Shown one piece after another: positions 4,548 through 16,951 of a DNA stretch of 64,000 bases; positions within the stretch are counted from its first letter, which is position 1; every line of letters begins with the position of its first letter. Source of the DNA: Hydrogenophilales bacterium (GTDB lineage: Bacteria; Pseudomonadota; Gammaproteobacteria; Burkholderiales; Thiobacillaceae). The notes below the pieces were generated by a model, which worked only from the letters and a program-made list of their open reading frames with translations, was not told the origin of the DNA and made no database searches. A program made the translations under genes and the position numbers. Location: assembly GCA_024636675.1 (NCBI GenBank), contig JAGXGM010000028.1, positions 1 to 64,000 on the forward strand, given 5' to 3'.

Positions 4548-4651
4548 GTTCAAGGTGCAAGATTCAAGATGCAAGTTACAAGTTGTTCGTCGCCAGGCAT
4601 AAAGCCGTACGCTTCGTGTGAACCTTGTATCTTGATACCTTGCAACTTGAA
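4548..4651. repeat. Inverted arrays of 7-nt NNNCAAG units at the cheV/fliE junction
   Basis: Directly after the cheV stop there are five perfect consecutive heptads with CAAG as the last four bases (GTTCAAG, GTGCAAG, ATTCAAG, ATGCAAG, TTACAAG at 4548-4582). After a ~40-nt spacer the complement CTTG appears four times with 7-8 nt spacing (4624-4649). The two halves therefore form a broken inverted repeat that could fold as a long RNA hairpin in either direction. The same design occurs at 16185-16270. Mechanism and mobility are unknown. Confidence 0.85.
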
Positions 4652-4678
4652 GCCCCCGCGAAGCGAGGGCGATCTGCT
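4652..4678 (+). terminator. Possible intrinsic terminator between cheV and fliE
   Basis: GCCCCCGCGAAGCGAGGGC forms a GC-rich hairpin with one mismatch and a GAA loop, followed after a short gap by CTTTT. It lies immediately before the end of the oppositely oriented fliE gene, where read-through from cheV would need to stop. The T-run is short and not directly adjacent to the stem, so the call is tentative. Confidence 0.4.
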
Positions 4679-4679
4679 T

Positions 4680-5039
4680 TTAAATGCCCATGTTCATGAT
4701 GTTCTGATATGCCTCCACCAGCTTGTTGCGCACCTGCACAGTCTGCTGCAGGGCGATGCTGGATTTCTGCAATGAGATCATGGCGTCAGAGAGGCTGACC
4801 GTGCTGTCGCCCATTTCAAAACGCTGGGCCATCTGCTGAGACTGCTTCTGGACCTGATTGACCTGATCGAGCGAAGTTTTTAGGACTGAGTGAAAGTCGG
4901 TCGCACCGGCAGCCGGTTTGGCCTGCAGGGCACCGTCGCTCAGGGGGTTGGCATTTGCAGGGGACGTGCGTGCCGCCGCAGCCTGCAGCTGCGCCATCAT
5001 CGCTTCGATCCGGCCTGTGTCGATTGCACCAATGCTCAT
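4680..5039 (-). CDS. fliE: Flagellar hook-basal body protein FliE
   Basis: A 119-residue protein with the FliE C-terminal pattern (DAMISLQKSSIALQQTVQVRNKLVEAY, then NIMNMG). FliE sits in the periplasm between the MS ring and the proximal rod and is the first axial protein exported. The start ATG has a strong ribosome site (AAAGGAGG). It is transcribed alone and divergently from fliF, as in enteric bacteria and unlike the fliEFGHIJ order found in many other proteobacteria. Confidence 0.95.
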   Translation of the reverse strand: MSIGAIDTGRIEAMMAQLQAAAARTSPANANPLSDGALQAKPAAGATDFHSVLKTSLDQVNQVQKQSQQMAQRFEMGDSTVSLSDAMISLQKSSIALQQTVQVRNKLVEAYQNIMNMGI

Positions 5040-16167: not shown

Positions 16168-16184
16168 GAGACACGTTGCATGAG

Positions 16185-16270
16185 ATGCAAGCGCCAAGAT
16201 TCAAGTCACAAGGAAAACCTACCCCGTTCAACTTGAAACTTGAAACTTGAAACTTGAAACTTGAAACTTG
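16185..16270. repeat. Inverted arrays of 7-nt NNNCAAG units at the fliR/cheZ junction
   Basis: Four perfect heptads ending in CAAG (ATGCAAG, CGCCAAG, ATTCAAG, TCACAAG; 16185-16212) are followed by a ~19-nt spacer and then six CTTG at exact 7-nt steps (16232-16270), of which five units are identical CTTGAAA. The array fills the gap between the convergent fliR and cheZ genes and ends only a few bases from the cheZ stop. The layout copies the one at 4548-4651. Confidence 0.92.
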
Positions 16271-16276
16271 AGCCTG

Positions 16277-16951
16277 TCAGAAGCCCAGGCTATCGAGCAG
16301 ATCGTCCACCTGGCTTTGGTCGGCCACCACGTCGCTCTTCTTCTCCGGATTGATCTGCGGACCGTTGAGCAGGCCGCTATTGGATTCACGCTTTATCTCG
16401 GCCGGCGCGTAATCAATCAGCAGTTGCACCAGTTGCTGCTCCATGCTGTGCGCGAGATCGGTCACCTTGCGGATCACCTGACCGGTGAGATCCTGAAAAT
16501 CCTGCGCCATCATGATGTCCAGCAGCTGCTGCTTGGTGGCGCTGGTGTCGTTGCGCATATCGGCCAGGCACTGCATGGTCATCGTGGCCATGTCGCGGTA
16601 ATTGGCTTCCGAAAAGGGGGCTTTGAAGGCCGCCTGCCAGCCATTCAGGATTTCGTCGGCGCCTGCATCGATGCGTTCCTGCATGGGGATGGCGGCATCG
16701 GTGGCGTTGAGCACGCGCTGCGCCGCCTGTTCGGTCATGCGTGCGACATAGTTGAGACGTTCGCGGACGTCGGGGATGTCATGCGTCGCTTTTTCCAGCA
16801 CCTTGTCGAAACCGAGCTCGCGCAGGCTTTCGTGCAGGGTGCGGGTGATCTGGCCAACCCGCGCCAGCATCTCGTCATGTTCGTTCCCTGCGGCGTCCAC
16901 GGCACCGGGTGCGACAGCAACCCCGTCGGAACTGGCGAATTGCGTATCCAC
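16277..16951 (-). CDS. cheZ: CheY-P phosphatase CheZ
   Basis: A 224-residue protein that forms a four-helix bundle and speeds dephosphorylation of CheY-P. The catalytic segment AQDFQDLTGQVIRK carries the Asp and Gln that in E. coli CheZ are D143 and Q147. The C-terminal CheY-binding helix is present (SQVDDLLDSLGF). It begins one base after the end of cheY and shares its sigma-28-type promoter. Confidence 0.96.
   Translation of the reverse strand: MDTQFASSDGVAVAPGAVDAAGNEHDEMLARVGQITRTLHESLRELGFDKVLEKATHDIPDVRERLNYVARMTEQAAQRVLNATDAAIPMQERIDAGADEILNGWQAAFKAPFSEANYRDMATMTMQCLADMRNDTSATKQQLLDIMMAQDFQDLTGQVIRKVTDLAHSMEQQLVQLLIDYAPAEIKRESNSGLLNGPQINPEKKSDVVADQSQVDDLLDSLGF

Follow-up and report, generated by a model that had tools for sequence, protein, structure and literature searches.

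Extragenic palindromes of the REP/BIME type are dispersed imperfect palindromes at the 3' ends of genes. The CAAG arrays described here share this place but have no conserved repeat sequence or head, and they possess an internal period of 7 nt. Bidirectional intrinsic terminators likewise consist of an inverted repeat between convergent stop codons. Tandem heptamers have been described in Xanthomonas, where, according to Rehm et al. (2015, PMC4692102), GGGAATC/GGGANTN units form 70-75 inverted pairs per genome that are intergenic, lie close behind the 5' neighbouring ORF and are scarce between divergent genes. Four units are preferred, the length differs between species, and the authors tied the four units of this G-rich core to G-quadruplexes. 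The TAACTGA repeats of Beggiatoaceae (MacGregor 2015, PMC4679880) are also intergenic tandem heptamers, found in sulfur oxidisers and others, but their unit is fixed, they are direct (with one indirect set) and mostly located just upstream of starts, and the role proposed for them is translational. The parS heptads of pSM19035 (ParB/omega, RHH) are 7-bp tandem and inverted sites as well, at least four of which are needed; they differ in being plasmid promoter/centromere sites of the sequence WATCACW (PMC9499535).

Here we analysed a window of 64,000 nucleotides, the whole stretch considered, from a Thiobacillus MAG. Like the Xanthomonas heptamers, its arrays consist of tandem 7-nt units in which some positions are fixed and others free, form close inverted pairs, occupy a similar place relative to genes and prefer four units, but they lack the G-tract of GGGAATC. 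CAAG arrays or heptanucleotide repeats of Thiobacillus were not found described in the literature searched, which left out most subscription journals.

The array between fliR and cheZ

The array occupies most of the 109-nt spacer (16168-16276) between two convergent genes. The features of this junction and of the other array in the window are:

4551 to 4582, forward strand: left arm of the first element, five CAAG units directly past a cheV-like coding sequence
4624 to 4649, forward strand: right arm of the first element, CTTG units with one register shift, ahead of the fliE stop codon
15376 to 16167, forward strand: fliR, convergent left neighbour (Pfam PF01311, E 2e-74)
16185 to 16212, forward strand: left arm, four NNNCAAG heptads with the triplets ATG, CGC, ATT and TCA
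16213 to 16231, no strand: centre of 19 nt, GAAAACCTACCCCGTTCAA
16232 to 16273, forward strand: right arm, five CTTGAAA heptads followed by one CTTGAGC (six CTTG units in all)
16277 to 16951, reverse strand: cheZ, convergent right neighbour (Pfam PF04344, E 2e-75), with its stop codon at 16277

The unit numbers, coordinates and convergent setting given in an earlier note on this DNA were exact. The left arm starts 17 nt past the fliR stop codon, with CAAG at 16188, 16195, 16202 and 16209, and the right arm ends 3 nt short of the cheZ stop codon, with CTTG at 16232, 16239, 16246, 16253, 16260 and 16267, followed five times by AAA and once by AGC (TRF: AACTTGA x6, 100%). Within the centre, CAAGGAAAACC is common to the junction hairpins of relatives. 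Rfam gave no match at gathering score anywhere in the window.

The same note had reported a further array of this architecture between convergent genes. Indeed, the element at 4551-4649, in which one right-arm unit is displaced by 1 nt, lies at a convergent junction of genes that Pfam identifies as encoding a CheV-like protein (CheW and receiver domain) and FliE. The note's argument that chance was unlikely was also confirmed: the window contains nine matches to CTTGN3CTTGN3CTTG, whereas dinucleotide shuffling predicts 0.02, and none of 100 shuffles of the window reached this number. In many species, a further conserved GC hairpin followed by TTTT separates the first array from the stop codon of fliE (4650-4680 in the window), so that the array there may be redundant.

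Folded as RNA, the fliR/cheZ spacer has predicted energies of -22.6 and -31.9 kcal/mol, one value per strand, and the values for elements whose arms both have four or more units lie between -18.8 and -51 kcal/mol. The right arm of an element pairs better than the right arms of other elements (mean -29.9 vs -27.8, p = 0.02). The arrays resemble intrinsic terminators in having a stable predicted hairpin past the stop codon, but a T-run directly past the stem is absent at the fliR/cheZ array, where CTTGAGCCTGTCA comes next; this array therefore falls short of the textbook form of an intrinsic terminator. It also differs from bidirectional ones in its stem of tandem heptads without flanking A/T runs. 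We interpret the array as an imperfect inverted repeat that would form a 3'-end RNA hairpin, most likely a bidirectional terminator or a 3'-end stabiliser, and we put the probability of this reading at about one half. Being readable from both strands, the hairpin could serve both convergent genes. Termination or 3'-end protection would be its simplest job, judging from its place and from its replacement by terminator-like stems.

The orthologous junctions in related species

Homology to FliR and CheZ, and not the repeat, served to locate the fliR/cheZ junction in about 40 species. The junctions bearing arrays include L068, L069, L074, L075, L094, L099 and the window, whereas the majority of related species have no CAAG array there. 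GC-rich near-perfect stems are present in L076, L083 and L088 (L123 also has a GC stem), and long stems with mixed arms in L077 and L092; L064 and L071, whose junctions are longer, have a GC stem between A and T runs, as in a bidirectional intrinsic terminator. Among 19 distinct junctions shorter than 130 bp, 12 fold with z < -2 (down to -9), be it with arrays, GC stems or mixed arms. L080, L081, L084, L085 and L091 are among the junctions with neither an array nor a significant fold. In the close relatives L076, L077, L083, L088 and L092, the arms are wholly different and the centre is of a similar GGAA type. The cheV/fliE site carries CAAG arrays, GTGAGGG, GGTGAGC or TCAGG arrays, or plain stems, depending on the species. 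Such swapping of arms for stems at one junction is not mentioned for the Xanthomonas heptamers in the parts of PMC4692102 consulted. We conclude that the conserved entity is the hairpin at gene ends, and that heptads are the way in which its arms are built in many species.

The earlier note had divided the array into an older half and a recently expanded one. This division is borne out by L099, L228 and L258, which keep the left arm (in L099 its inner part) and have a changed right arm. L099, with a CheZ 92% identical, agrees with the window in the two left triplets nearest the centre and in the centre type, but its right arm has two CTTG units (CTTGAAA) and then CTTTTCA, where the window has six units. 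The left arm is identical in L228 (G000) and L258 (G022), whose orthology to the window junction was assumed from arms and centre. Unrelated sequence without a repeat in related genomes, together with a lack of other copies in this genome, had been named as evidence against the proposed family; the lack of a CAAG array at this junction in most relatives agrees with the former, whereas other copies do exist in the window genome.

At the orthologous fliR/cheZ site, the triplets vary while CAAG/CTTG is constant. In-register pairing around the common centre amounts to 68% in 11 junctions compared with 57% for shuffled right arms, a value that none of 1000 shuffles reached, and 15 positions are altered on both arms (compensatory), although the sequences behind these counts are few and related, and two of the 11 rows (L060 and L079) are chance core matches. 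Mapped on a FliR+CheZ tree, arrays in six rows require six changes, which is not a smaller number than with shuffled labels. This patchy presence speaks for arrays as mere by-products of mutation, in which 7-nt polymerase slippage is mirrored by quasipalindrome template switching without any selected function, and heptads persist past stop codons merely because spacers there tolerate insertions. Such a process explains neither the fixed CAAG/CTTG amid varying triplets nor a hairpin that outlasts total replacement of its arms.

In-place exchange of arms for unrelated stems is also at odds with a mobile REP/MITE-type repeat that inserts at gene ends, even though the arrays are dispersed, intergenic and located at 3' ends, and some centres at different loci are similar (TCGTGGCCGGGCATAAAGCCGCTCGC-like). 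The copies agree in period and core only, not in triplets or centres, so that the likeness across loci typical of REP/MITE repeats is missing; of eight genomes, only two contain the best common centre, a single time each and allowing up to three mismatches. We consider such an origin highly improbable, and the search for a mobile element with a common centre ended with just two near-identical centres.

Other sequences were also observed between fliR and cheZ. L060, L090 and L093 contain inserts of about 2.4 kb, among them the nearest relative on the tree, and in other species a dispersed palindromic repeat, GTGGGAGGGGCTTTAGCCCCGATG, and a GTAGGAG...GGCGCC-rich repeat occupy the junction (L063 and L066; also L073 and L282).

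Unit number, period and core

The anatomy of the arrays was studied in 80 distinct Thiobacillus CAAG elements with 142 arms, 86 of which have exactly four units. In those genomes where the seed was lowered to three units, 38 arms had four units, 13 had three and two had five. Free slippage predicts fewer four- than three-unit arms, the opposite of what was found (p = 3e-4). Length differences are 7-nt steps, mostly confined to one arm, and extreme arms are one-sided (4<13>, 12<3> and 4<15>); L070 has 13 CTTGTAA units, and L227 has 12 CAAG units, ten of them with ATT. The family and the 7-nt steps proposed in the earlier note hold, but growth is not open-ended, as the arms peak sharply at four.

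The one-sided expansions resemble plain slippage, the cores are exchangeable, an excess of heptamer repeats and the idea of slippage have been published already (PMC4692102), and in E. coli quasipalindromes become perfect through template switching (PMC7202029). An origin as a by-product of mutation is therefore the strongest rival to the hairpin reading, possible if somewhat unlikely: it accounts for the expansions and leaves the four-unit mode unexplained. According to the hairpin reading, four tandem heptads would be the norm for an arm, arm length would shift by 7-nt replication slippage, and the matching of the arms would probably be kept by selection, by quasipalindrome template switching or by both. 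Since CAAG or CTTG is present in every unit, pairing between the arms comes into register every 7 nt and would remain possible after units are gained or lost. Triplet pairing between arms is only weakly above shuffled arms (47% vs 44%, p = 0.02), and strict triplet covariation was therefore discarded.

On the CTTG strand, the first place of the free triplet is nearly without G, the second is mostly A and the third is A or T. The resulting consensus, CTTG-H-A-W, has no G-tract able to form a G-quadruplex. The centres measure 6-7 nt (GAAAAC, GTTTTC) or 13-47 nt, many contain a small internal stem, and a few are similar between loci. Long centres with TCGTGGCCGGGCATAAAGCCGCTCGC-like sequence in common were seen at L226:3128, L240:2774 and L251:2530, with G013 and G008 identical over 26 nt. 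Roughly one third of the collected elements have a single detectable arm, several of them between codirectional genes. In L247 and L268, single-arm four-unit CAAG arrays lie past a stop codon and ahead of a pyrF-like start, and they are apparently kept in two species.

We also scanned for arrays without a CAAG seed. In 1.15 Mb of stretches from G000, G013 and G023, lag identity revealed 11-13 period-7 arrays per genome sample and 0-3 for periods of 4, 5, 8, 10, 11 and 13; multiples of three, expected from codon structure, were omitted. In 1.69 Mb, inverted pairs numbered 36 at period 7 (5 in shuffled sequence), a few of them GC-rich coding stretches, and 7 at period 6 (3 in shuffled sequence); periods 4 and 5 were not above shuffles, and periods of 8 or more gave almost none. 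A stricter scan for single intergenic arrays (1.15 Mb) found 51 at period 7 and two at period 8. The cores of the 51 arrays were TGAG/CTCA in 20 cases, CAAG/CTTG in 17 and CAGG/CCTG in five, showing that the CAAG core shares its design with others, such as GGTGAGG and TCAGG. Since a core without G-tracts shows the four-unit preference and the inversion, and since several cores in one genome share one architecture, quadruplexes cannot account for such arrays in general. A need for stop codons in every frame was rejected as a general reason for period 7, as neither the Xanthomonas GGGAATC units nor the CTTGCAT units contain any.

Contig C4 of G000 contains four inverted GGTGAGG/CCTCACC heptad elements within about 6 kb (L369:11905-18132) and a TCAGG-type element 1.4 kb further on (L369:19553-19658), a cluster denser than any CAAG cluster seen.

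The four-unit mode, the exchangeable core and the 3'-end hairpin as the preserved entity had not been foreseen by the earlier note, and they change the reading of the array.

Distribution and position relative to genes

The window genome has at least five such elements, including the two in the window. Those outside it are:

C49:1367-1498: inverted array
C65:43010-43117: inverted array
C76:17479-17503: one-sided array

At least four consecutive CTTGNNN units were found in 20 of 41 genomes of a search among relatives, nearly all of the same genus, and a reversed control pattern was almost absent. In a class sample, 41 of 369 genomes had such runs, with the reversed pattern GTTCNNN likewise common in some genomes. 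G196, from another family, has a matching layout of four CAAG, a short centre and four CTTG. G155 and G388 of this sample contain long homogeneous arrays with more than 100 heptads of the types GTTCCGT, GTTCAGT or GTTCAGC; some of their contigs start inside an array, so assemblies may break there.

Of 71 classifiable CAAG elements, 49 lie between codirectional, 18 between convergent and four between divergent genes, compared with 343, 70 and 98 background spacers of at least 50 nt (p = 0.001), according to our own codon-usage gene calls, which are rough and uncertain at starts. Convergent spacers are enriched and divergent ones depleted (p = 0.0005); these counts lack full independence, as some elements are mutually orthologous, with about eight of them representing the fliR/cheZ junction. 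The median distance to the 3' end of the neighbouring gene is 7 nt.

This location past stop codons rather than at promoters weighs against heptads as DNA sites for an oligomeric protein, with one 7-bp site per dimer and four contiguous sites as the functional array. The fixed tetramer with its free triplet and the single-arm arrays would suit such sites, and pSM19035 provides a precedent for the 7-bp spacing, the direct and inverted orientation and the threshold of four contiguous heptads (PMC9499535). However, different cores with the same architecture in one genome would need several proteins, which also weakens the idea of one protein reading CAAG, and co-adaptation of the arms would not be expected. 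Omega_Repress had no match in 26 genomes, nor in any control genome. We regard protein sites as improbable.

Throughout the Gammaproteobacteria, taken widely so as to cover the former Betaproteobacteria, inverted 4+4 heptad arrays might even be a general gene-end class, characterised by period, number and inversion and not by sequence, a generalisation that we find doubtful. If it were true, the preference for four units whatever the core would imply recognition of unit number and 7-nt spacing as such, be it by a trans-acting oligomer or through hairpin geometry. The over-abundance of heptamer repeats in bacteria is on record but lacks an agreed explanation, and the present case separates possible causes. 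Two orthologous junctions in dozens of species form a comparative system in which one can ask whether it is the hairpin, the period or the unit number that is kept.
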